Shown in pieces: positions 29,294-40,949 of a stretch of 44,070 nucleotides of DNA. The stretch covers positions 1 to 44,070 of the forward strand of contig CAMJQC010000020.1 of assembly GCA_946407975.1 (NCBI GenBank). The letters are read 5' to 3'. Every line of letters begins with the position of its first letter. Within the stretch, counting starts at the first letter, position 1. The notes under the pieces were generated by a model that worked only from the letters and a program-made list of their open reading frames with translations, was not told the origin of the DNA and did not search any database. The translations under genes were made by a program, and so were the position numbers. The DNA is from an uncultured Bacteroidales bacterium (lineage in GTDB: Bacteria > Bacteroidota > Bacteroidia > Bacteroidales > F082).

Positions 29294-30379
29294 ATGAAAA
29301 AAAACATCCTATTCTTACTTGGTGCGGTCCTGTTATTGGCCGCTTGCAACTCAAAGGAACCTGGCATAAAGGTGAACCTCAATCTTACGAATGGCAACGA
29401 CCAGACCGTTTATTTAAGCAGAATCACGGATAACCAGCCTGTAGTGGTTGATTCTGCCGTCATCAAAGACGACAAGGCCGTTCTGCATGCTCCCGAAGGC
29501 AATGTCGAAGACCTATATGCCATCAACAGAGAAAAAGGCGGATATCTTCCGTTTTTTCCTGAAAACCACGACGTCAACATCAATGGCGATCTTAATGTTC
29601 CCGAAGAAGTAAAAGTTGAAGCAGGTAAAGCCCAGAATCTGTTTGAAGATTATCTGAACGAACAGAATGGGTATTACATGCAGATTGAAAGTCTGTTCCA
29701 TATGCTGGATGCAGCACAGCAGGCTGGCGACCAGACGCAAATCGATTCCCTTAACGGCGTGGGTAATGGCTTGATGGAAGCCATGCAGACAGCGCGCACT
29801 AACTTTATCAACACGCATCCTGAGAGTTTTGTCGCCCATTATGTGCTCAACAGTGAGAAGATCGACTATGACCTCGATCAGATAAAGGAAATGGAAACCG
29901 CCATGACGACGGAATCTATCTATCGTACCGACCTTAAGCAATACATCGACGACCAGGAACGTCTCGAAGTGGGCCATCCTTTCCTTGACTTCACTTTGAA
30001 GACTGCTGACGGTCAGGAGGTGACGCTTGCTGAACAGATTGCCAAAAACAAGGTCACGATGATAGATTTCTGGGCTTCATGGTGCGGTCCCTGCCGTCAA
30101 GAGAATCCCACGGTGAAAGCCGCTTATGAACAATTCCACGACAAAGGTTTTGACATCCTCGGTGTCTCTGTCGATCAAGACGAAGCCGCTTGGCTGAAAG
30201 CCGTTGAACAGGATGGTCTGCTCTGGACGCAGGTGCGTGATGTGGATAACGAAGCCGGCAAGCTTTATTCCGTCTACGCCATTCCTTCCAACTTCCTCTT
30301 CGATCAGGAAGGCAATATCATTGCCAAAGGTCTGAGAGGCGAAGCCCTGGCTGAGAAACTCACCGAAATCCTGAAGTGA
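29294..30379 (+). CDS. TlpA-like thioredoxin lipoprotein with DUF4369-like N-terminus, copy 1
   Basis: A 361-residue lipoprotein (lipobox LLAAC, C18). The N-terminal third is a beta domain of the DUF4369 type (VNLNLTNGNDQTVYLSR) and the C-terminal 140 residues a TlpA/ResA thioredoxin fold with the redox motif WCGPC in FWASWCGPCRQENP and the cis-proline region YAIPSNFLFDQEG. It would act as a thiol-disulfide reductase facing the periplasm. The longest frame starts at a TTG nine bases upstream; the ATG at 29294 gives a standard lipoprotein start. It overlaps the next gene by one base and seems to be read with mreBCD. Confidence 0.9.
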   Translation: MKKNILFLLGAVLLLAACNSKEPGIKVNLNLTNGNDQTVYLSRITDNQPVVVDSAVIKDDKAVLHAPEGNVEDLYAINREKGGYLPFFPENHDVNINGDLNVPEEVKVEAGKAQNLFEDYLNEQNGYYMQIESLFHMLDAAQQAGDQTQIDSLNGVGNGLMEAMQTARTNFINTHPESFVAHYVLNSEKIDYDLDQIKEMETAMTTESIYRTDLKQYIDDQERLEVGHPFLDFTLKTADGQEVTLAEQIAKNKVTMIDFWASWCGPCRQENPTVKAAYEQFHDKGFDILGVSVDQDEAAWLKAVEQDGLLWTQVRDVDNEAGKLYSVYAIPSNFLFDQEGNIIAKGLRGEALAEKLTEILK

Positions 30380-31482
30380 TGAAGACAAGAGCCTTATTAT
30401 TTGCTTTGGCAGTGCTTGCCTTGGCAGCCTGCAACCGTCAGCCTGAGGCCAAGACCTTCAAGGTGAGTGTCGACTTGGCTAACACGGAAGGTAAGACCGC
30501 CTATCTGATGAAGAATGGCCAGAAATTGGATTCGGCGGAACTCGTCAACTGGAAGGCGGAGTTCAACACGCCCGTCTGTAAGGATAACGAGATGTACGGC
30601 CTCATGCTGAAAGGCTGGCGTCGTCCTTTCATGTTCTTCACCGATAACAAAGACGTGCAGCTCGAAGGCGATGCGCAGAACCCCAATAACATCATCGTGA
30701 AAGGTTCCGAATCGCAAGCGAGGCTCGACGCCTTCAACGAAGGCTATGCCGCTTTTGATGCCAAGCTCGACTCTCTCGGTCAACTGCTGCAGCAAGCCAA
30801 GGAAAACGGCGGACAGGAAGCCGTGCAGCAGCTCCAGCAGCAATATGCCGATATGGAGGAAATCCAGAAGATGTATTGCTTCGACTATGTCTGGGAGAAC
30901 CCTAAGGATGCCGTGGCGCATTATGTGCTGTATCGCTACAAGTGGGCTTTCAGTCCCTGCGAGCTGCGCACGATGATTGACAACATTCATAGTGCCGACA
31001 GCACCATCACTTCGGGCAGCTTGCAACAGGCTGAGGATTATCTTGTAAAGCAAGAGAGGGTGCAGGCTGGTCAGCCTATGCTCGATTTCACACAGGATGG
31101 CGTGGACGGTCAGCCTTTGACGTTGTCAGAACTGGCTGCTGGCACCAAACTTCTTTTGGTGGATTTCTGGGCTTCATGGTGCCCCGACTGCCGCAAGGAA
31201 AACCCCAATGTCGTGGCTGCTTATCAAAAGTTCCATGAAAAGGGATTCGACATCCTAGGCGTCTCTTACGACACCGATGCCGAGGCTTGGAAAGCCGCCA
31301 TTGAAAAAGACGGCCTGACTTGGCATCACGTCTCCGACCTTAAGGGTTGGAGCAACGCCACTTCCGACTTGTATGCCATTTCCTTCATTCCGCAGAATGC
31401 CCTCATCAAAGACGGAATGATCGTAGCCCGCAACCTGGAAGGGGAGGAGCTGATGGAGGAGATAGAGCGGCAGCTGAAGTAG
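30379..31482 (+). CDS. TlpA-like thioredoxin lipoprotein with DUF4369-like N-terminus, copy 2
   Basis: A 367-residue paralogue of the preceding protein, starting at an ATG that overlaps its TGA (TGATG). Lipobox LAAC. It has the same layout, but the redox motif is WCPDC (FWASWCPDCRKENP), and the cis-proline region reads AISFIPQNALIKDG, with IP preserved. A different dipeptide between the cysteines usually shifts the redox potential, so the pair may differ in direction or partner. The middle part is glutamine-rich (QEAVQQLQQQYADMEE). Last gene of the run that begins at purH. Confidence 0.9.
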   Translation: MKTRALLFALAVLALAACNRQPEAKTFKVSVDLANTEGKTAYLMKNGQKLDSAELVNWKAEFNTPVCKDNEMYGLMLKGWRRPFMFFTDNKDVQLEGDAQNPNNIIVKGSESQARLDAFNEGYAAFDAKLDSLGQLLQQAKENGGQEAVQQLQQQYADMEEIQKMYCFDYVWENPKDAVAHYVLYRYKWAFSPCELRTMIDNIHSADSTITSGSLQQAEDYLVKQERVQAGQPMLDFTQDGVDGQPLTLSELAAGTKLLLVDFWASWCPDCRKENPNVVAAYQKFHEKGFDILGVSYDTDAEAWKAAIEKDGLTWHHVSDLKGWSNATSDLYAISFIPQNALIKDGMIVARNLEGEELMEEIERQLK

Positions 31483-31512
31483 GAGATTCCCGAGCGAAGC
31501 TAAGGGAAACCT

Positions 31513-32355
31513 TTATTCATGATCCTGATGCTCTTTTAAGCTATCAAGCTGTCTTTTATAGACATCTAAAGTGTAAAGGTTTTCTTGCTTGAGTGCTGAA
31601 GTATAGAAATCGTCACTGAGAGGCGCTTGCTCCTCAATGACGATTTCTTTATGGTATTCCTCCATAAACTCCCTTAGTTCCTTTTCGGTGATGCCTATCA
31701 CGCTCATGTTTTGCTTGTTGGTGTAGCGCATGTGCTCCGCCTGAAATTGCAGCCAGCAATTCCAGTTGTGCTTCATTGCCATTATTTGACGCACATTGTC
31801 GTTTCGCAACCATTTGGTGCAGGTATATTTTCCAGGATGCTCTCCGGGGTTCCCGCTAATGTCATCAATGGTTTTCTCATCCTCTTTCACCCTGTTGTTC
31901 CAATAATCTTCGATGTTGTGCATTCGTGTAAAACAGTCGCCGACGTTGTTGATAAACTGGAAATTACCCAAATTTTTCCATGTTTCAAGATTGTTGGAAA
32001 AAATGTTCTCAGCGGCTTTGTCGAACGAGACGAAACTGTTGCTCACGGCATCAAACATCAGTTCCTGTAGCGTTTCTTTTGGCATCAGCTCCAACTCGTC
32101 GACAGGCACGCTGAGGAGCCAGGCGCAAAGCGTGTCGCAACGTTGTTGTTGTACAACAATCTCGTCGATACCGTTGGCAAAGTCCTCTATGGTACCCATC
32201 ACCATAAGCGCTGAAAGCCTGCGGTCGTTGGCCCGCTCTCTGCGTTCAAGCATTATACTCGTTCCAATGGTAAACACCAAAGAGATGGTGGTACCAATGA
32301 TAATCATACCTATCTGTTTCCAAAAACCAGTATGTTTTTTTAACTCGGTTTTCAT
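31513..32355 (-). CDS. Membrane-anchored protein of unknown function
   Basis: I do not recognise this 280-residue protein. One hydrophobic segment lies at about residues 13-35 (QIGMIIIGTTISLVFTIGTS), preceded by a basic stretch; the rest is soluble, charged and mostly helical, probably on the periplasmic side or membrane-associated. Cysteines at CDTLC and CTKW could pair. Start at the ATG at 32355, 41 bases downstream of the stop of the cysQ fragment on the same strand, so before the insertion it may have been the gene right after cysQ. Its 3' end converges on the TlpA pair with 30 bases between. Confidence 0.7.
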   Translation of the reverse strand: MKTELKKHTGFWKQIGMIIIGTTISLVFTIGTSIMLERRERANDRRLSALMVMGTIEDFANGIDEIVVQQQRCDTLCAWLLSVPVDELELMPKETLQELMFDAVSNSFVSFDKAAENIFSNNLETWKNLGNFQFINNVGDCFTRMHNIEDYWNNRVKEDEKTIDDISGNPGEHPGKYTCTKWLRNDNVRQIMAMKHNWNCWLQFQAEHMRYTNKQNMSVIGITEKELREFMEEYHKEIVIEEQAPLSDDFYTSALKQENLYTLDVYKRQLDSLKEHQDHE

Positions 32356-32396
32356 GTGTTTCGGATGTTTTGCTGTTTATGGGTGTAAAAGTACAA

Positions 32397-32541
32397 TTAT
32401 TTTGCCCAAGCCACAAAAGGCGGGTTAGGATATTCCGCTTTGCTGTATTCCAAAGGCTGTCCATCGCTGATACGCAGCACCTTGCCACCAGCGGCGCGCA
32501 GAATGGCATCGGCAGCGGCAGTGTCCCATTCCTTGGTCTTG
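32397..32541 (-). pseudogene. 3'-end fragment of cysQ (displaced copy)
   Basis: Forty-seven codons plus TAA read TKEWDTAAADAILRAAGG..., then KVLRISDGQPLEYSKAEY and PNPPFVAWAK, the same as the C-terminus of CysQ at 35243-35384. Over 142 bases I count 21 differences; 18 of 20 altered codons are synonymous, so both copies come from working genes that diverged under selection. There is no start or upstream part. The stop directly after WAK is probably the native CysQ end. It forms the left boundary of the AT-rich insert. Confidence 0.85.
32400..32541. repeat. Direct repeat, left copy (cysQ 3' end)
   Basis: 142 bases matching 35243-35384 in the same orientation at about 85% identity by hand count. 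The two copies bound 2,701 bases. Homology stops sharply at TTTT/GCCCAAG on one side and CTTGGTCTTG on the other. Confidence 0.85.
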
Positions 32542-32586
32542 ATTTCAATTTGCAATATAATACAATATTCTTCGTTTTAAACTATT

Positions 32587-33984
32587 ATGAAACACTTTAT
32601 TCTTTCTATATTAATTGGAATCAGCATTTTAAGTGCTTGTAACAAAGGTGCTTTGCCAAAAACAACAAATGAATCGAATCTGTTGCAATGTTTCATGAAA
32701 TATGATAGTATCGGATACTATTACTACTCAACTTATCAGTTCAAAGAATCCATGGATTGCTATATTAATGCTCTAAAAATTCTTGATTCAATTCCGACTT
32801 CATCCACAGTTGATTCCTTGTATGGAATTGTTTATCAGAAGATTTCCGACCTCCTGTTTGAATGTGATAAATACGAATCCGCAAAAGACATCTGTTTTCA
32901 TTCTTTGGAGTATAGTCTTAAAAGTGGCGATTCCATTTCTATTACCTCATGTTATCGTAAAATTGGTAATTTGTGTTATTATCTCTCCGAAAAAGACAAT
33001 CCAGACACCTTGTTGTATTATCTACAAAAAAGTCTGCCCTATGCAAAAGGAGAAGACCCTTATTTCTCAGCGTTGTATATAGCTTTGGTTGGTGCTTATA
33101 AAGACAAGACATTGCCTGCCAAATTCATGTCCGAGAGAGGAAAGGGCATCATGCTGTTACCAGACGATTGTGATGACAGATTGCCATATCTGAACAACTA
33201 CTTCGCTTGGACATTGTGGGTGATAGAAGAAACGGAACAAGCCATTAGCTATGCGGAACAAAGCGCATCGTCCTCCAATTTGAAACAGCAATTGAACGCT
33301 CTCGCCATGCTTGGCGAGATGTATTTGGAGATGGGCGATACAGCAACCTCCATCATCAAGACAAGTCAATACGACAGCTTGAATCTGGTTTTTTCCGAAG
33401 CCAAAAGAAAGGCTTCGGGCATTGAAAAGCAATTGCGGCAATACGAGACAGAAAAGCGCCTGCAATCCGACGAGGCCGCAGCCAAACATCCTGCCGTAAC
33501 CATCGGGTGTGCAACACTAGTTGCGCTACTAATAACAATGGCTGTCGTTGGCTTTTTCCGCAAGAAAAAGGCAAAAACGATGACTCCATCTTTCAAGGAA
33601 CTCTCGGAACGATTTGAATCCACTGAAATTTATCAAAAGATAGAAGAAAAATGCACTCTCGAAGCTGACCTAACGGCAAGCAACCTAACAACAAGCACTA
33701 TTTGCCTACATCGAAACGAGTGGAAAGACCTTGAGAAAGCATGTGGCGATTGCTTCGGCAATTCCATGGAAAGATTCAAAGAACTACATCCCGACCTTAA
33801 TGACGGAGAATGGCAATACATCATGCTTTCACTGCTCGATCTGAGTGAAGTTCACAAGGCAGCATTACTTGGATTGTCGTACCAGGGCTGCATCAGCCGA
33901 CGCAATCGCGTACTGAACAAGACAGGCATGAGCAACTTACACGATGAAATGCGCAACGCCCTGAAAAACATAATGGAAACATAA
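32587..33984 (+). CDS. TPR lipoprotein/membrane regulator with C-terminal HTH-like domain
   Basis: The 465-residue protein has a signal with a lipobox-like SILSAC (C18), helical repeats of TPR type across about residues 35-260 (for example STYQFKESMDCYINALKIL), a coiled segment rich in E, Q and K, one membrane segment at about 305-327, and a cytoplasmic tail of about 135 residues. The tail ends in KAALLGLSYQGCISRRNRVLNKTGM, which resembles the recognition region of LuxR-like helix-turn-helix domains. This layout is known from Bacteroidales TPR sensors that signal across the membrane; whether C18 is lipidated or the signal is cleaved is open. It is the first gene of the cysQ-bounded insert. 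Base composition is clearly AT-richer than the flanks. No relative is named. Confidence 0.7.
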   Translation: MKHFILSILIGISILSACNKGALPKTTNESNLLQCFMKYDSIGYYYYSTYQFKESMDCYINALKILDSIPTSSTVDSLYGIVYQKISDLLFECDKYESAKDICFHSLEYSLKSGDSISITSCYRKIGNLCYYLSEKDNPDTLLYYLQKSLPYAKGEDPYFSALYIALVGAYKDKTLPAKFMSERGKGIMLLPDDCDDRLPYLNNYFAWTLWVIEETEQAISYAEQSASSSNLKQQLNALAMLGEMYLEMGDTATSIIKTSQYDSLNLVFSEAKRKASGIEKQLRQYETEKRLQSDEAAAKHPAVTIGCATLVALLITMAVVGFFRKKKAKTMTPSFKELSERFESTEIYQKIEEKCTLEADLTASNLTTSTICLHRNEWKDLEKACGDCFGNSMERFKELHPDLNDGEWQYIMLSLLDLSEVHKAALLGLSYQGCISRRNRVLNKTGMSNLHDEMRNALKNIMET

Positions 33985-34015
33985 CGTATCATAACGCGAC
34001 ATAATGTCACCCCGC

Positions 34016-34023
34016 TACTTTTG
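34016..34023 (+). promoter_or_regulatory. -7 promoter box of the tail-anchored protein gene
   Basis: TACTTTTG lies 32 bases after the stop of the TPR gene and 65 before the ATG at 34089, ruling out the longer frame from 34023. Confidence 0.5.
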
Positions 34024-34088
34024 TGGCCTCAACCACTGTGACGAGCGGTAACCGACCGATTTCGGCAAAATCTCAAATCAAAGACATT

Positions 34089-34532
34089 ATGTCAAACACA
34101 ACAAAAATGGATGCAGCTACACAAGCTCGCATCAAAGACATGGGTAAGCAGGTCATGCAAATTATGACATTGCAATGTCAAAGCCTTTACACCACAGGTA
34201 TGACAGAATCTGCCTTCATTGAAACCGTCTATGGTGACATAGCAGCGAGTAATCGTACTATTGAAGGTGTTAACTTTTTCAAGCAGGTTTATGCGCATCT
34301 TGCTGCAAATAGAACCTTTTCAGAGGTTGAAGAAATGGAAACGGGAGATGTAACCTTAGCTTTATATCAAGAGGCAATCAGTTTGTCTTCTACAAGAACT
34401 ACAACCAACAATTTAGATGTAATTGTTATCTCAGTAGACAACAATACAGTCGGTTGCATACCTTGGTGGGTCTGGGTTATATTGGCTTTGCTGGCTTTAA
34501 TAATGAAGAAGGATAGCCACCAGGAGGAATAA
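34089..34532 (+). CDS. Small tail-anchored protein of unknown function
   Basis: I do not recognise this 147-residue protein. It has a soluble, threonine-rich helical N-terminal part and one C-terminal membrane segment at 124-139 (IPWWVWVILALLALIM) followed by a short charged tail, so it is probably tail-anchored with the bulk in the cytoplasm. There is no signal peptide. An alternative start is the ATG at 34107. It has its own promoter and sits between the TPR regulator and the DUF3267 gene inside the AT-rich insert. Confidence 0.6.
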   Translation: MSNTTKMDAATQARIKDMGKQVMQIMTLQCQSLYTTGMTESAFIETVYGDIAASNRTIEGVNFFKQVYAHLAANRTFSEVEEMETGDVTLALYQEAISLSSTRTTTNNLDVIVISVDNNTVGCIPWWVWVILALLALIMKKDSHQEE

Positions 34533-34544
34533 TGACCTATTATC

Positions 34545-34621
34545 GTAGGTGTCAAAAGTAATATATTTAAACGGAATAACACTGCATAATTCTTTCAAAG
34601 TATATTGCTTTTGCCACCTAC
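34545..34621. repeat. 20-bp inverted repeat with 37-base spacer
   Basis: The left arm 34545-34564 begins GTAGGTGTCAAAAG and the right arm 34602-34621 ends CTTTTGCCACCTAC; 18 of 20 positions pair, and one of the two others is a T-G pair. It lies between two genes of the insert. It could be a large hairpin, a miniature mobile-element relic or an invertible segment; no clear promoter box is seen inside. Confidence 0.6.
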
Positions 34622-34652
34622 TCCCTTTAGATAATGAAAAACAACCAAAAAA

Positions 34653-35276
34653 ATGTTAAACAGCAATAATCAAATATTCAAAACCCTTCCGGAAGATTAT
34701 CATCTTCTCAAGACCATCAACCTTAAAGAAGACAAGCTAACCTTGATAGGAATTGCGGCAACTGCAATACTGATAGGTTGGGTAATGATTGAAATCATGG
34801 ATTCCTTTGTACCCCTCAAAACCTACTTTGAACCTTGTCAAAACACCACAGAGCATATTTTGGCTTATGTGTTTCTTTTAATGGGTGCGTTCATCTGCAT
34901 AGTTTTACATAAACTTACCAAGGGGCTTTCGATGAAAAGGTATGGTGCAAGTAAAGTCTTCTTCCATTTCAATGGCATCGGATGTCGTGAGTACATTGGC
35001 AAGAAGCCATACACATTCATTGCATTAGCCCCATTGGTCATTTGGGGTATCATATTCTTGTTACTGATTTTAATAATCAAGGGGCAATACTTTTGGCTGG
35101 TGTACTTCATTCAAGTCGTGAATGTGGCAGGTTCCATGGGCGACATTTATGCAGCTCTGGTTTTGAGGAAGTGTTCAGACGATACGCTTGTCGAAGACAA
35201 AGGAGCTATCATACATTTCTATTCCAAGACCGAGGATGTTCTTTTGGCCCAAGCCACAAAAGGAGGATTGGGGTAG
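34653..35276 (+). CDS. DUF3267-like membrane protein lacking HExxH
   Basis: The 207 residues hold four hydrophobic segments (about 31-50, 68-87, 118-141 and a weaker one near 146-165) in the layout of DUF3267, a family of putative membrane zinc proteases. NVAGSMGDIYAALVLRKCSDDTLVEDKG matches the conserved family end, given here as NVAGSMGD and VEDKG. The expected HExxH is reduced to IVLHKLTKG, so the glutamate and second histidine are gone and protease activity is unlikely. The last 11 codons (LLAQATKGGLG) read antisense through the right cysQ repeat, overlapping cysQ by 58 bases, so its native C-terminus was probably lost at the insertion junction. Confidence 0.65.
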   Translation: MLNSNNQIFKTLPEDYHLLKTINLKEDKLTLIGIAATAILIGWVMIEIMDSFVPLKTYFEPCQNTTEHILAYVFLLMGAFICIVLHKLTKGLSMKRYGASKVFFHFNGIGCREYIGKKPYTFIALAPLVIWGIIFLLLILIIKGQYFWLVYFIQVVNVAGSMGDIYAALVLRKCSDDTLVEDKGAIIHFYSKTEDVLLAQATKGGLG

Positions 35277-36043
35277 TCCGCTTTACTATATTCCAGCGGC
35301 TGTCCGTCGCTGATGCTAAGCACCTTGCCACCTGCGGCGCGGAGGATGGCATCGGCGGCAGCGGTGTCCCACTCCTTGGTCTTGCTGTAGCAGACGTAGA
35401 CATCGGCGCTACCTTCGGCCAGACGGGCGAACTTGAGGCTGCTGCCTTGGGTGTCGATGACAAGGTCGGGATGGGCGGGGCGCAACACCTTTTCAATATA
35501 TTCATCCACCTCTGTGCTGCGGTGCGAACGGCTGACCAGAACCGTGAATGGGCGTTCTGCTTGAGCAGGTTGAATCGCTTGTGCCGAATCAACCCTTTCC
35601 ATTAACGCTTTATCGGTAGGTGCTTCTCCTTTTCCATTCAAGAGACGGGTCATTTTGTATGCTTTGCCGTCTCGGTTATACCACAAGGTATCCGTTACCG
35701 GGGCATAGACGACGCCCATCACGGGCTTTTTGTCGTCGACGAGGGCGATGTTCACCGTAAACTCCCCGTTGCGTTTGACAAACTCTTTGGTGCCGTCGAG
35801 AGGGTCAACGAGCCAATAGCGTTGATACGAGGAACGGTCCTTTGGCAGATCTTCTTCGCTGACAAAAGGGAGACCTGTCATAAGCAGCCTTTCCTTGATG
35901 ATGTCGCTGGCCTGCAAGTCGGCCTGGGTGACGGGCGACGCATCGCTTTTGACATATACTTCAAACTGCGTGGAATAGACCTTTAGAATAGCTTTTCCAG
36001 CGGCTAAAGCGGCTTGAATGGATGGGATGAGAAATGGTTGCAT
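35219..36043 (-). CDS. cysQ: 3'(2'),5'-bisphosphate nucleotidase CysQ
   Basis: CysQ removes the phosphate from PAP, the by-product of sulfate activation, to give AMP. The 274 residues belong to the inositol-monophosphatase-like family, with metal motifs EED (FVSEEDLP), DPLDGTKEF and the C-terminal EWDTAAADAIL. The start ATG at 36043 is only five bases after the -7 box, suggesting a leaderless message. After the normal end PPFVAWAK the protein carries seven extra residues (RTSSVLE) that come from the insert side of the junction. A displaced copy of its natural 3' end lies 2.7 kb away. It overlaps the DUF3267 gene tail to tail. Confidence 0.94.
   Translation of the reverse strand: MQPFLIPSIQAALAAGKAILKVYSTQFEVYVKSDASPVTQADLQASDIIKERLLMTGLPFVSEEDLPKDRSSYQRYWLVDPLDGTKEFVKRNGEFTVNIALVDDKKPVMGVVYAPVTDTLWYNRDGKAYKMTRLLNGKGEAPTDKALMERVDSAQAIQPAQAERPFTVLVSRSHRSTEVDEYIEKVLRPAHPDLVIDTQGSSLKFARLAEGSADVYVCYSKTKEWDTAAADAILRAAGGKVLSISDGQPLEYSKADYPNPPFVAWAKRTSSVLE
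35243..35384. repeat. Direct repeat, right copy (within cysQ)
   Basis: Matches 32400-32541. This copy is part of the intact cysQ frame. Confidence 0.85.
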
Positions 36044-36047
36044 AGTG

Positions 36048-36055
36048 CAAAGGTA
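36048..36055 (-). promoter_or_regulatory. -7 promoter box of cysQ
   Basis: TACCTTTG on the minus strand is followed by CACT and then the ATG. With transcription starting about 4-7 bases after the box, the message would begin at or beside the start codon. Nothing else is evident in 36044-36264. Confidence 0.55.
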
Positions 36056-36264
36056 ATTATTTTTAGTCGTTTAGTCAGCGGCCGTTAATTATGTTTGTTT
36101 TATAATGAATGTTTGCCACTAAAAACTTTAAAGGGAACTAATCAAATAGTAGAATGAAAAGAGCGGATTCTTTGAACCAAAGGCAGATGAAGACTGAAAA
36201 GCATTTCTTGTAACTTTTTAACAAGTAAATCGTAGTATTGTCATTATTTCAAATAGCTTTTAAA

Positions 36265-37311
36265 ATGAAACACAAACTCCTCTTTCTTATCTGCCTGGCT
36301 GTCCTCCTGATTTTTTCCGGATGTGGACAAAAGTCAACTGAAACCACCAACCTCACGCCCGACGATAACACTTGCGTTATCAAAGGCAAGATAATCGGCC
36401 TTGACCTCAGCAACAAAGCCACAGTGGAACTGGAAGACCAATGGGACCATGCCAAAATACTGGCCACTGCCCCTGTTAAAGACGGAGAATTCGCCATGGC
36501 GGTACCGGTCAAGGAGATGAATCATGTCGTTTTGTATTGCGTTGATAACGATGACGCCTACCAAATGCGTGATTTCCTGCTGGAACCTGGTGAAATCGTG
36601 ATAGAAGGCAGTCCTGATGACTATGAAGATCTGATAGGATGCACTCCAATGAATGATCGCTTCAAGCGTTTTGTCGCTGAGGCAGAAACCGACGATACAC
36701 AGGAAGCAAGGCTTTTTGAAGCGTTCCTGAAAGAAAATCCCCAACCCGAACTGATCCTTCGCATCTTGCAATACGTTCAGCTCAATCCTGCCTATGAATT
36801 GGAAATATTTCAGTCGCTGCCCGAAAACCTGCAAAACAAAGAGTCGTATACCCGTCCCATCAAGGAAGACTTTTACAATAATGCAAAATACTTCGCCAAA
36901 GGGATGCCTTTTCACGACCTGGAGGGACAGACTCCGGACGGAAAGAGAGTGAAACTCGCCGACTATATGGGGAAAAAGCCCATCACCATCATCAATTACT
37001 GGGCGACCTGGTGTGGTTTCTGCATTGAGGAGATGCCCGAACTGGCACTTATTGCGGAGAAATACGGCGACAGCGTGAACATTGTCGGAGTTGACGTCAG
37101 GGAACCCATGAAAGCAGAAAAACTGCAGGCCTTTATAAACGAAAAAGGCATGACCTGGCCCATCATCACGGATGTCGATGAGATTTCAAATGCATACATT
37201 ACCAGTATTCCCGTCAACGCCATCTACGACAAAGACGGTTTGCTCATCGAGAAGGTACAAGGTTACAGAGAGAACAAGCTTACAAGACATCTTGAGAAGA
37301 TTTTGGAATAA
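36265..37311 (+). CDS. TlpA-like thioredoxin lipoprotein with DUF4369-like N-terminus, copy 3
   Basis: A 348-residue lipoprotein (lipobox FSGC, C18 from the ATG at 36265) with an N-terminal DUF4369-type domain (IKGKIIGLDLSNKATVELE) and a C-terminal thioredoxin fold with redox motif WCGFC in YWATWCGFCIEEMP and cis-proline region ITSIPVNAIYDKDG. It is a distant relative of the pair at 29294-31482 but not in their operon. The longer frame from 36238 overlaps a possible promoter (TAGTATTG, 36233-36240) and adds no signal features. Probably a periplasmic thiol-disulfide enzyme. Confidence 0.9.
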   Translation: MKHKLLFLICLAVLLIFSGCGQKSTETTNLTPDDNTCVIKGKIIGLDLSNKATVELEDQWDHAKILATAPVKDGEFAMAVPVKEMNHVVLYCVDNDDAYQMRDFLLEPGEIVIEGSPDDYEDLIGCTPMNDRFKRFVAEAETDDTQEARLFEAFLKENPQPELILRILQYVQLNPAYELEIFQSLPENLQNKESYTRPIKEDFYNNAKYFAKGMPFHDLEGQTPDGKRVKLADYMGKKPITIINYWATWCGFCIEEMPELALIAEKYGDSVNIVGVDVREPMKAEKLQAFINEKGMTWPIITDVDEISNAYITSIPVNAIYDKDGLLIEKVQGYRENKLTRHLEKILE

Positions 37312-37349
37312 AAATGCCAGAAGTCCGTATCACTTTTGAAATTTCATGC

Positions 37350-37357
37350 TATTTTTG
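37350..37357 (+). promoter_or_regulatory. -7 promoter box of the esterase gene
   Basis: TATTTTTG lies 21 bases before the ATG at 37379. Confidence 0.55.
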
Positions 37358-37378
37358 ACCCACTAAAACAAAACAACC

Positions 37379-38557
37379 ATGAAAAGACTCTATATCCTTT
37401 TTGTTTTCGTCCTCGCAGGTCTCACGCTGCAGGCTCAAGAAATGAAGACCCTCACCTGGGGTGGCGTGGAACGTCAGTATTACCAATATGTGCCCGCATC
37501 CTATACTGGCGAGACCTCGGTACCGCTCGTCCTTTGTCTGCATGGCTTGGGCGAAGGAGCAATGAATTTCTTCAACGTCACCAATTTTGCTTCCGTTGCA
37601 GAACAGAAGGGATGGATTCTGGTTTATCCTCAAGCACTCAACTTCACTATCAACATTCCTTTTGTCGGTTCGCAGGACCTGGGTCCCTGCTGGAACGTAG
37701 GCAGCACTGTCACCATCTCCATCAATATGGGAGGTTATCCCATCAGTTTTGACGTGTCCGTCAATCCCAACGTCGATGACTCAGGCTTTCTCAACGCCAC
37801 CCTCGATCAAGTGGAGAACGACTTCAATATCGATGCCGACAGCGTCTTCGTCATGGGCTTCTCATTGGGCGGACTGATGAGTCACCGTATGGCCATCGAA
37901 CATGGCGATCGCATCAACGCCATCGCTGCCATCAGCGGCGAGATTGGAAACGAATTGACAGGGCTGACCCCTACCGGTCATGTCAGCGTGTTGCAGGTGC
38001 ACGGCACCGACGACCAGATGATTTCTTATGAAGGCGCCAACATCTCTTATGGCGGTTACGGTCCTTTTTCCGTTGGCCTCGATGCCGAGGAAACCGTCAA
38101 CTGGTGGTCTGTCTTTAACAATTGTGACCTTGACCCGGTCATAGAGCTGTATCCCGATTCGCAAGACGACTACATGACTTTTGAAATGCACAGCCATCTC
38201 AACGGCGACAACGGTTCAAGAGTGGCGCTGCTGAAGGTGAACGGAGGTGAACACAACTATTATACGAGCGGCAGCTACGATATCGACTATACCGAAGAAA
38301 TCGTCAGGTTTTTCATTAACACCCTCGATGTCACGTCGACACCTGAATTGACGACGGAAACATTGAACGTCCATCCTAACCCGGCGAACAGTTTCATCAC
38401 TATCGACGGATCCGCTCCTGTCAGCATTATCGACCTCATGGGGAAGACCGTGCTGCAAAGTCAGGGCAAGAGCTGTATCGATGTCTCTTCCTTATCGGAA
38501 GGCGTGTATTTTGTGAAATCGGGAGATGCTTATAGCAAACTGATCATCAGTAGATAA
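37379..38557 (+). CDS. Secreted alpha/beta-hydrolase esterase with type IX sorting domain
   Basis: The 392 residues start with a Sec signal ending near LTLQAQ. The body is an LpqC/PHB-depolymerase-like esterase: VPLVLCLHGLGEGAMNF, the nucleophile motif GFSLGG (G-x-S-x-G), a lid-like region, and the acid and histidine in HGTDDQM and GGEHNYY. The last 75 residues (LNVHPNPANSFITI ... GVYFVKSGDAYSKLIISR) are a type A C-terminal domain recognised by the type IX secretion system, so the enzyme is exported and probably held on the cell surface. Likely substrates are feruloyl or acetyl esters of plant polysaccharide, but that is not shown by the sequence. Confidence 0.9.
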   Translation: MKRLYILFVFVLAGLTLQAQEMKTLTWGGVERQYYQYVPASYTGETSVPLVLCLHGLGEGAMNFFNVTNFASVAEQKGWILVYPQALNFTINIPFVGSQDLGPCWNVGSTVTISINMGGYPISFDVSVNPNVDDSGFLNATLDQVENDFNIDADSVFVMGFSLGGLMSHRMAIEHGDRINAIAAISGEIGNELTGLTPTGHVSVLQVHGTDDQMISYEGANISYGGYGPFSVGLDAEETVNWWSVFNNCDLDPVIELYPDSQDDYMTFEMHSHLNGDNGSRVALLKVNGGEHNYYTSGSYDIDYTEEIVRFFINTLDVTSTPELTTETLNVHPNPANSFITIDGSAPVSIIDLMGKTVLQSQGKSCIDVSSLSEGVYFVKSGDAYSKLIISR

Positions 38558-38583
38558 ACATTTTAAAGGCAGTTTATAAACAG

Positions 38584-38614
38584 AAAAAGTCGCCCAGATG
38601 GACGACTTTTTTCA
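38584..38614. terminator. Bidirectional terminator between the esterase and PspC genes
   Basis: AAAAGTCG (38585-38592) pairs with CGACTTTT (38603-38610), with CC/GG pairs further in, and A and T runs on either side. It serves both converging genes. Confidence 0.75.
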
Positions 38615-38636
38615 TTTATAAAAATGGAATTAACAC

Positions 38637-38912
38637 TTACACATTGGTCTGATTCGGATCTAGGGAGTCTTGGGGCTCCTGTGGCTCCTGAGGTTGCTGG
38701 GGCTGCTGATAAGTGTTCTGCGAGATTTGTCCTTGTTGTGGCATGATGATAGCGCAGATGATGTAAGCCAGCAGGCCAGCGCCGCCGCAAACGGCGAAAA
38801 GCACCCAAAGCAGTCTCACCAAGGTGGGGTCGATGTCAAAGTATTCGCCTAAACCTCCGCAAACGCCGCAGAGCTTTTTGTTCGAAAAGGAACGATACAG
38901 TTTCTTGTTCAT
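38637..38912 (-). CDS. PspC domain membrane protein
   Basis: The 91 residues contain a PspC domain ([18 protein letters not shown] and [17 protein letters not shown]) followed by one membrane segment (about 36-59) and a proline- and glutamine-rich tail of 30 residues ([13 protein letters not shown]). PspC proteins take part in envelope-stress responses in proteobacteria; in Bacteroidota such small stand-alone copies are frequent and of unknown role. It has a clear promoter and stands alone. Confidence 0.9.
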
Positions 38913-38941
38913 CTTATGATAGTTTTTAAACGTTGATGACG

Positions 38942-38949
38942 CAAAGATA
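38942..38949 (-). promoter_or_regulatory. -7 promoter box of the PspC gene
   Basis: TATCTTTG on the minus strand, 29 bases before the ATG at 38912. Confidence 0.65.
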
Positions 38950-39070
38950 CATTCTTTTTTTACATACCGAAAGAGGGTTGCAAGGTTGTAAGCTGGCCAT
39001 TAGCCATTAACTAGCTTATCGCGGTCTGTCGGCCTATCATTAAGTTAGCGGTCAGCATGTTTTGTCTCCA

Positions 39071-39165
39071 TGAAATGCTCTGTATTCAACTCAGTTAATG
39101 TAAAGCATTTCACCGTAAGGTGATCTCTCGTATCTGCACGAATCAGGATATCCTTGTGATTCGTG
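39071..39165. other. Three tandem hairpins in an intergenic region
   Basis: TGAAATGCT (39071-39079) pairs with AGCATTTCA (39104-39112); TCACC-GTAA-GGTGA follows at 39110-39123; CACGAATCA (39137-39145) pairs with TGATTCGTG (39157-39165). The stems are perfect, and the first two share three bases so they cannot both form fully. There is no T-run, so none is a normal terminator. No gene is seen in 38950-39171. Confidence 0.45.
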
Positions 39166-39171
39166 TCGATC

Positions 39172-39864
39172 TCATTTCAAGAGCCCTTTGAAAGCCGTCC
39201 AGGGCGCTACCGTGGGCAGCGGAGCCACCACCTCGATGCGTTCGTTGGTGGTAGGATGCTCGAACGAGATCTTATACGCATGCAGGCTGATGGAAGCGTC
39301 GGGGTTGCTGCGGGGATACCCGTATTTCAAGTCACCGCGGATGGGACAGCCGATATGCGCCAGCTGACAGCGGATCTGATGATGCCGACCCGTGAACAGC
39401 TCCACCTCGAGCATGTAGTAGTTCTCGGATTTCCCAACGAGTTTATAACTCAGCCGCGCCAGCTTGGCATCCTTGGTGCCTTCCTTCACGACAAAGGACT
39501 TGTTTTGTTTCTCGTTCTTGACGAGGTAATCCTCCAAAACGTCGCTTTCTTTCGGCGGACAGTTTTTCACCAAGGCGAGATAGACCTTGTGAAAGTCACG
39601 GTCTTTCACCTTCACGGTCATGCGCGAGAGGGCCTTGCTGGTCTTGGCGAAGACGACGGCGCCGCTCACGGGACGGTCGATGCGGTGCACCAGACCTGCA
39701 TACACGTTGCCTGGCTTGTCGTATTTCACCTTGATGTATTCCTTGACATCGTCCAAGAGGCACACGTCGCCCGTCTTGTCGCCCTGCACGATCTCAGACG
39801 GCAGCTTGTTCACCACGATGAGGTGGTTGTCTTCGTAGAGGATACGGTCTGCTATTGTGTTCAT
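39172..39864 (-). CDS. RluD-family RNA pseudouridine synthase
   Basis: The 230 residues match the RluA/RluD family, which converts uridine to pseudouridine in rRNA or tRNA. The catalytic motif is HRIDRPVSG (aspartate in HRxDxxxSG), with FHKVYLALVKN, EVELFTGRHHQIRCQLAH and GDLKYG as further family motifs. There is no S4 domain at the N-terminus, so it is closer to the short RluA/RluC-like forms; which base it modifies cannot be told. The ATG at 39864, 17 bases after mnmA, is preferred to a TTG at 39873. It is transcribed with mnmA, so both serve RNA modification. Confidence 0.9.
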   Translation of the reverse strand: MNTIADRILYEDNHLIVVNKLPSEIVQGDKTGDVCLLDDVKEYIKVKYDKPGNVYAGLVHRIDRPVSGAVVFAKTSKALSRMTVKVKDRDFHKVYLALVKNCPPKESDVLEDYLVKNEKQNKSFVVKEGTKDAKLARLSYKLVGKSENYYMLEVELFTGRHHQIRCQLAHIGCPIRGDLKYGYPRSNPDASISLHAYKISFEHPTTNERIEVVAPLPTVAPWTAFKGLLK

Positions 39865-39881
39865 AACTGCCAACTCCTATA

Positions 39882-40949
39882 CTAACAACTCTCTACGATA
39901 ACCCCGCTCCCGATGACGTAAGGCTCCGTCTCGTGGTAGAGCACGCCGAACTGTCCGGGCGCAACGCCTGAGATGGCGACGTCGGAGAGGATGTCACAGC
40001 CTTTCTCGGTGAGATGGACGGTACCCATGGTGAACTCAGGCTGATGGCGGATCTTGTAACGCACACGCTGACCCTCGGTGAGGTGCAAGGTGGGGTTCAT
40101 CATCTGCAGGTCGGCCAAAGGCACATGCTGCGTGTATTGTGCGATGGGGTCGTAACCCTGCGAGACATAGACGATGTTGTTCGGGATGTCCTTCTTCACC
40201 ACAAACCAAGGTCCGCCACCCAAGCCAAGGCCTTTGCGCTGCCCTATGGTATGGAACCAGAATCCCTTGTGACGGCCTAACTTCTTGCCTGTCTCCAGCT
40301 CCACGATATCGCCGGGCATCTCACCGAGATACTCGCGGATGTAGTCGTTGTAGTTGATCTTGCCTAGGAAACAGATGCCTTGGCTGTCGTGACGCTCAGC
40401 GCTCGGCAGTTTGTACTGGGCCGCCAGACGGCGCACCTCCGACTTCACGATACCGCCTATGGGGAAGATGACTTTGCTCAGCTGAGCGTAGGTGATGCGA
40501 CCCAAAAAATAGGTCTGGTCCTTGAAGGTGTCGGCAGCGGTGCCGAGCCAGAAACCGTTCTCGTCCTCCCAGCTGCGGGCATAATGCCCCGTGGCGATCT
40601 TGTCGAAGTTGTGACCTTCCTTCTCTTCGAAGGCGCCTAATTTGATCCAGCGGTTGCACATCACATCGGGGTTGGGCGTCAGTCCCTTACGGACCATCTC
40701 CATGGTGTATTTTCCAACGGTTTCGAAATACTCGTGCTGCAGGTCCACGATGTCGAACTTGCAACCGTATTTCTTGGCGATGTAGGTGGTGATCTCTATA
40801 TCTTCCTCCGACGGACAACTCGACAGGTCTTCCTTGCCTTCCATCCCGATCTTGATATAAAAGATATGCGGGTCGTATCCCTGTTCTTTCAACAGAGGCA
40901 CCACCACGCTGCTATCTACGCCACCCGAAACCAATGCCGCTATGTTCAT
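39882..40949 (-). CDS. mnmA: tRNA-specific 2-thiouridylase MnmA
   Basis: MnmA adds sulfur at position 2 of the wobble uridine in Lys, Glu and Gln tRNAs. The 355 residues start with the ATP-pyrophosphatase loop SGGVDSSV (8-15). The two catalytic cysteines are in NPDVMCNRW and DSQGICFLG. The C-terminal part has HTIGQRKGLGLGGGPWFV, split here as HTIGQRKGLG and GGGPWFV, and the beta-barrel domain. The start follows a clear promoter. It leads a two-gene unit with the pseudouridine synthase. Confidence 0.95.
   Translation of the reverse strand: MNIAALVSGGVDSSVVVPLLKEQGYDPHIFYIKIGMEGKEDLSSCPSEEDIEITTYIAKKYGCKFDIVDLQHEYFETVGKYTMEMVRKGLTPNPDVMCNRWIKLGAFEEKEGHNFDKIATGHYARSWEDENGFWLGTAADTFKDQTYFLGRITYAQLSKVIFPIGGIVKSEVRRLAAQYKLPSAERHDSQGICFLGKINYNDYIREYLGEMPGDIVELETGKKLGRHKGFWFHTIGQRKGLGLGGGPWFVVKKDIPNNIVYVSQGYDPIAQYTQHVPLADLQMMNPTLHLTEGQRVRYKIRHQPEFTMGTVHLTEKGCDILSDVAISGVAPGQFGVLYHETEPYVIGSGVIVESC

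Follow-up and report, generated by a model that had tools for sequence, protein, structure and literature searches.

The cysQ tails and the stretch between them

The window analysed here is the whole of contig CAMJQC010000020.1 (44,070 nucleotides), from an uncultured Bacteroidales bacterium. It contains the genes trxB and cysQ in convergent orientation and, between them, a second copy of the end of cysQ together with several cargo genes (Table 1). The last 142 bp of cysQ, which we call its tail, are present twice in direct orientation (32400-32541 and 35243-35384, 2843 bp apart), and this is the only long direct repeat found. The two copies are identical at 121 of 142 bases (85%; 21 differ), which is far beyond chance, and their translations have the same residue at 45 of 47 codons, the two differences being R/S and E/D. 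This means that nearly all the differences between the tails are synonymous. The original prediction made on this DNA, which had described a repeated tail of this length, orientation and identity with almost only synonymous changes, was therefore accurate.

The left tail is closed by a stop codon after the residues VAWAK, exactly as cysQ is in G061, G066 and G076 (genomes, contigs and loci are designated by our own G, C and L numbers), and p280 and trxB follow. The right tail continues through the junction to VAWAKRTSSVLE and a stop codon, which makes seven extra residues. At the inner end of the tails, 12 bases are identical in both. The 2701 bp separating the copies (32542-35242) have 40.0% G+C against 47.8% for the whole window, and none of the 414 windows of equal length taken every 100 bp across the window is as low. 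Three plausible genes lie there, encoding a TPR-like protein, a small protein (p147) and a DUF3267 protein. The predicted AT-rich insert of 2.7 kb with three genes is thus what we find, and, as also predicted, no integrase was matched in these three genes by the Pfam and phage-family scans.

Table 1. Features of the trxB-cysQ region (positions in the window; a dot in the strand column denotes no strand)
Feature	Position	Strand	Basis
trxB, thioredoxin-like protein, 368 amino acids (aa), left hotspot flank; codons ~336-368 look exchanged	30376..31482	+	Pfam, sliding comparison
Segment common to relatives with p280 directly behind cysQ; spans p280 and left cysQ tail	31510..32541	.	comparison with relatives
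p280, 280 aa, patchily distributed cargo gene; N-terminal membrane segment by eye	31513..32355	-	no Pfam family above cut-off
Left (stranded) cysQ tail, stop codon TAA at 32397-32399	32397..32541	-	repeat search, translation, relatives
Low-G+C cargo between tails, 2.7 kb	32542..35242	.	repeat search, G+C scan
TPR-like protein, 465 aa	32587..33984	+	open reading frame (ORF), Pfam
p147, small protein, 147 aa	34089..34532	+	comparison with G011, G034
DUF3267 protein, 207 aa; last residues antisense to cysQ tail	34653..35276	+	ORF, Pfam
cysQ, 3'(2'),5'-bisphosphate nucleotidase, 274 aa, right flank; contains right tail 35243-35384	35219..36043	-	Pfam, TIGR01331 above cut-off, mosaic comparison

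A hotspot of gene turnover between trxB and cysQ

The source genome of the window is a metagenome assembly of 1.68 Mb in 48 contigs, 77% complete, of which the window is contig C20. A search at the level of the genus covered 99 genomes, including the window's own; cysQ was matched in 54 of them and the loci of the other 53 were compared with the window. Behind cysQ, the fetched DNA extends for at most about 15 kb, and for far less on some contigs (7 bp in G058). G001, whose tail match was too poor, was excluded from the tail and cysQ comparisons.

We measured the convergent trxB-cysQ gap at 41 loci (40 relatives and the window), leaving out 13 of the 54 because trxB was not part of the DNA fetched for them. 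It ranges from -4 to 13,930 bp: it is at most 141 bp, that is, empty, at 15 of the 41 loci and at least 619 bp at the 26 others, with no value between. The neighbouring gaps are cargo-free where both ends are seen, being at most 12 bp for mreD-trxA (27/27), at most 184 bp for trxA-trxB (30/30, as loci with coinciding best trxA and trxB hits were skipped) and at most 371 bp for cysQ-topA (51/51). The cargos themselves differ, one three-gene set occurring in ten genomes and others once or twice. We counted 199 predicted cargo ORFs, the window's own included, some of which are not real genes; where trxB was missing, as much as 12 kb of the DNA following cysQ was taken in. The 20 of these 199 that were scanned include TPR-like proteins, a secretion-tail protein, DUF4143 ATPases, ORF6N, AbiEii, an outer-membrane protein and one match to a PD-(D/E)XK family transposase, in G013; no integrase was found among them. 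Hence, the trxB-cysQ gap is a hotspot of gene turnover of the genus, with varied cargo between the same flanks. A cargo-swap hotspot was one of the possibilities raised at the outset, and the proposed comparison of the region downstream of cysQ in relatives did bring out both empty sites and other cargos.

The second tail is found in the window only. With the cysQ end of each of the 54 loci as query, no second copy was detected in the fetched stretches of the 53 relatives, so that they do not all share the paired arrangement, and such sharing would have spoken against the original interpretation; the ten further matches listed for these queries were 30-59 nt long and all lay outside the tail. 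Neither was a long invariant core seen at the cysQ end of 52 genomes: most synonymous sites vary at the gene end, only the F and V codons being 90-92% fixed. At the inner end of the tail, the third positions of codons 1-6 are 90-100% fixed in the same genomes, which coding constraint also explains. An element aimed at the end of the gene and equipped with a replacement tail thus found no support in the fetched stretches of the 53 relatives, in the scans for an integrase (the three genes between the tails and 20 of the 199 cargo ORFs) or in the conservation of the gene end.

Transfer of p280

Copies of p280 of the window type (at least 81% amino acid identity) occur in 11 of the 99 genomes, the window's included, five at cysQ and six elsewhere (one of these six, G065, has no cysQ match). 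In four relatives p280 lies directly behind cysQ, and two of them, G071 and G076, have p280 as the sole gene between trxB and cysQ. Between the window and these four relatives the nucleotide identity of p280 is 85-87%, while for the same pairs it is 70-73% for trxB, 69-70% for mreD, 71-74% for cysQ and 74-78% for topA. At four-fold sites the identity is 74-79% for p280 against 24-56% for the other four genes. As p280 is so much more similar than its neighbours in the same pairs of genomes, we concluded that p280 moved between species. The window copy is as near to the ten others as these are to one another (four-fold sites, 0.705 versus 0.671; nucleotides, 0.855 versus 0.868). The p280 tree did not resolve the donor, and a plasmid search with p280 gave no relative.

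The pair G061/G060 provides an empty site. The flanks are 95% identical; in G061, which has p280, about 910 nt follow the 3' end of cysQ where G060 has about 35, and p280 is joined directly behind the last conserved cysQ codon. Since p280 is a transferred cargo sitting directly behind cysQ in four relatives, the left tail of the window is part of this trxB-p280-cysQ arrangement. In four relatives, TTTG in the codons PPFV is followed after 20 bases by TAnnTTTG just past the stop codon, which can be read with the promoter consensus of Bacteroides; the window has TACTTTTA at the position of TAnnTTTG, one base off. The p280 promoter may therefore reach into the cysQ end. As to its product, p280 (31513-32355) gave a weak match to the candidate defence model PDC-S67 (E 0.006), the sole match to a defence model.

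Probable mosaic structure of the flanking genes

In both mreD and trxB the window is the most divergent member of the set (0/27 and 0/40 genomes lower, respectively). A sliding comparison suggests that this divergence stops within the genes that flank the hotspot. In cysQ, 0-1 of 51 genomes lie lower than the window at codons 1-140, while at codons 181-240 the window is more typical than 38-45 of 52 relatives; in trxB, the window is the most divergent at codons 211-340 (0/40 lower) and ordinary at codons 331-368 (19/40 lower). The relative amino acid divergence of the window falls from 1.79 (codons 1-150) to 1.21 (codons 160-267) in cysQ and from 2.04 (codons 201-335) to 0.85 (codons 336-368) in trxB, the largest drop among 52 genomes for cysQ and among 40 for trxB, the window itself being counted. 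The exchange signal was examined in the window's lineage only. That the trxB and cysQ flanks are mosaics resulting from exchange is supported but not proved; foreign DNA probably makes up the trxB end and cysQ in its 3' part. For the boundaries of the insert, this means that the predicted coordinates hold for the repeat and not for the foreign DNA, which extends further: p280 looks transferred, and probably these two gene segments as well.

Several observations weigh against this reading and against the recombination scenario built on it below. The segment limits in cysQ and trxB were picked after the sliding scan. The last windows of cysQ drop again (14/52 at codons 221-260, 10/52 at codons 241-267), codons 61-100 and 151-220 of trxB are also mild, and milder drops exist elsewhere (1.33 for cysQ of G076; 1.44 and 1.33 for trxB of G048 and G047). 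Synonymous sites are near saturation and the mosaic is weak there: for the window versus the others we obtained 0.508 versus 0.539 (codons 1-150) and 0.630 versus 0.625 (codons 160-267) in cysQ, and codons 336-368 of trxB are still slightly low (0.560 versus 0.588). At four-fold sites the two tails barely differ (left 0.549, right 0.529, others 0.541). Among the genomes of the genus set, none proved closely related to that of the window; the nearest on the trxB tree, G093 (path 0.51), has another cargo. Furthermore, the cysQ-topA neighbourhood present in 51 of 53 relatives is missing in the window, and in a metagenome assembly which is 77% complete a misjoin at 32541/32542 is possible.

The topA gene of the window's genome lies on contig C26, in the interior of that contig, therefore its separation from cysQ is not just a contig break; the loss of this adjacency is a further rearrangement. 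Upstream of cysQ (36044-40949), another thioredoxin-like gene and unrelated genes replace topA. A variable loop with short repeats (units such as GTTGAGT or GAATGCT), resembling intergenic repeats, was noticed at codons ~121-160 of cysQ at L070 and L093.

The genes between the tails

The 465-aa TPR-like protein matches TPR_10 of Pfam below the cut-off only; it has a lipoprotein-like N-terminus and a membrane stretch, both judged by eye, and its C-terminal part resembles the BT3442 family weakly (below cut-off). Its gene has full-length relatives (40-42% identity) in five other genomes of the genus (L123-L127). A gene which by eye is lpxC-like adjoins these relatives in four of the five cases, and in four of the five a protein of some 150 aa is encoded next to them; the group was noted as a regulator-like module at another place. 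The N-terminus of p147 matches a stretch alongside the relative of the TPR gene in G011 and G034. Since the TPR relatives adjoin the lpxC-like gene in four genomes and a p147-like stretch in two, the TPR-p147 pair occurs at differing genomic places.

The DUF3267 frame enters the cysQ tail by 34 bp (stop at 35276), and its 3' end overlaps that of cysQ by 58 bp. At residue 86 (34905-34920) the protein has HKLTK where the metalloprotease motif HExxH might be expected, and it may be inactive as a peptidase. Relatives are rare: in the family, the window's own genome included, DUF3267 occurs in 2 of 173 genomes and p147 in 3 of 173 (E 1e-5), and at E 0.001 the genus gave two further weak DUF3267 matches (4/99). 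No second TPR-p147-DUF3267 locus that might reveal the history of the insert was found in the genus and family genome searches, nor did these bring up a sequence of the lineage predating the exchange, in which microhomology would show. In G021 (contig C68, L119:218-619), topA is immediately preceded by a DUF3267 relative (about 40% identical over 134 aa, with one stop in the match), on the opposite side of the normal position of cysQ. Searches of viral contigs with p280, DUF3267 and p147 gave no relative, and the scans for phage families no match. No pair of terminal inverted repeats of at least 18 nt joins the ends of the insert; shorter repeats and a target duplication were looked for by eye only.

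Discussion

The original prediction had left the choice between an integrative element and recombination with another strain. The tails differ by 15%, and recombination with another lineage is the best explanation. We consider it rather probable that homologous recombination within the trxB and cysQ ends exchanges the cargo of the hotspot, and that one such event ended illegitimately in the cysQ tail, leaving the tail stranded; this covers either polarity of the event. Cargo would enter and leave through the ends of the flanking genes without an integrase of its own. The window's lineage would have imported a stretch from about codon 336 of trxB to about codon 155 of cysQ, the source being a genus member of more typical sequence. 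The two tails would derive from a single exchange with one homologous and one illegitimate end, the latter at 32541/32542, which took place in this lineage or in its donor; the order of events, the donor and the recombination route are inferred. Most likely, incoming DNA with the 3' part of cysQ and the DUF3267-p147-TPR genes would have recombined into a resident trxB-p280-cysQ locus. It would have paired in cysQ and ended illegitimately within the tail already there, so that this tail, along with p280, was pushed outward. We prefer this polarity because the trxB-p280-cysQ order is resident in relatives and because the right cysQ seems to have an imported 3' part.

The opposite polarity fits almost as well, and we hold it as a possible if tentative alternative: DNA with the end of trxB, p280 and part of cysQ would have come in on a trxB anchor and been joined illegitimately upstream of a resident TPR gene, the right cysQ and its tail being native. 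The end of trxB looks typical, the main group of the genus is near to both p280 and the left tail, and of the two tails the left is the more typical (38/52 relatives with lower mean identity, versus 16/52 for the right). However, the 3' part of the right cysQ is typical as well (rank 38-45 of 52 at codons 181-240), so that another exchange is needed, and 27 extra bases between the trxB stop and p280 as compared to G071 make the left junction not plainly G071-like. The rank correlation of each tail with the cysQ body did not discriminate between the tails, and the tails by themselves do not settle the polarity. An in-place tandem duplication of the cysQ end with a later insertion between the copies would account for their same orientation and end point, but it is very improbable indeed, given that 21 of 142 bases differ, that the left copy is nearer than the right to 42 of the 52 other species (the right is nearer to 4, with 6 ties) and that the left copy is followed by p280 and then trxB, the order found in G071 and G076.

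The geometry (cysQ body, right tail, cargo, left tail with its stop) also fits a site-specific integrative element, its integrase acting in trans, which would enter the 3' region of cysQ at the shared TCCTTGGTCTTG with its own replacement tail; the right tail would then come from the element, and the left one would be the native end that it displaced. The 12 identical bases at the inner end and the conserved third positions of tail codons 1-6 could be its site, but this identity is expected since both copies are cysQ. Moreover, no second tail was seen in the fetched stretches of the 53 relatives, several of which are short, no integrase was found in the three cargo genes or the 20 scanned ORFs, and the G061/G060 join is not at the inner site but follows the last conserved codon of cysQ. 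We regard such an element as unlikely. Slightly more doubtful still is an insertion target at the 3' end of cysQ where a trans-acting recombinase of unknown nature would place single genes such as p280 exactly behind the last conserved codon, the gene end being part of the cargo promoter and the two tails a trace of the process. Finally, contigs of different rumen species may have been joined at 32541/32542 in the assembly. The fragmented state of this assembly and a cysQ without its usual topA neighbour, which is on another contig, agree with such a chimera; yet both flanks are unusually divergent, as expected within one genome, and the contig with topA continues on either side of this gene. 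This too is an improbable explanation.

These observations suggest that recombination drives the turnover of genes in a rumen lineage without cultured members, for which the adjacent gaps are a built-in control, and the stranded gene end would be the record of one exchange. They also carry a warning, namely that paired gene ends around a cargo need not imply an integrative element. The presence and absence of p280 in G061 and G060 offers a clean natural comparison for the spread of a single gene without a visible transposase.

Integrative elements are known to enter the 3' ends of genes, as the staphylococcal cassette chromosome (SCC) does at rlmH. Direct copies of a gene end bounding a cargo are common to such elements and to the present locus; here, in contrast, no recombinase is seen, no recurrent pairs were found and the tails are 15% different. 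We found no paper in the literature joining cysQ, an integration site and a genomic island. In Vibrio cholerae, the immunity-gene arrays of type VI secretion clusters are described as formed when a new module displaces the 3' end of a resident gene and its neighbour, which stay behind, by a proposed route akin to homology-facilitated illegitimate recombination (PMC5361080). The displaced 3' end and the neighbour left behind by a new module are shared with our locus; the arrays are repeated and of effector-immunity type, whereas here we have one event, a metabolic gene and a cargo of unknown role. Homology-facilitated illegitimate recombination itself, with one homologous and one non-homologous end, is reported from laboratory transfers (PMC3240628). 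The same pattern of ends is proposed here from sequence comparison; the shifts inside trxB and cysQ are candidate homologous ends, the crossover behind the two tails not being singled out among them. The closest parallel is given by the hotspots without integrase which, according to Oliveira et al. 2017 (PMC5635113), diversify by recombination at flanking core genes. Like them, our locus keeps its two flanking genes while the cargo varies or is absent; no integrase was seen in the ORFs scanned, and the flanks carry a candidate signal of exchange. Unlike those hotspots as presented there, the present one has a stranded gene end which would record an imperfect exchange, and it was compared across species of an uncultured genus. 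We provisionally regard the locus as a further case of a known kind of hotspot and not as a new mechanism.

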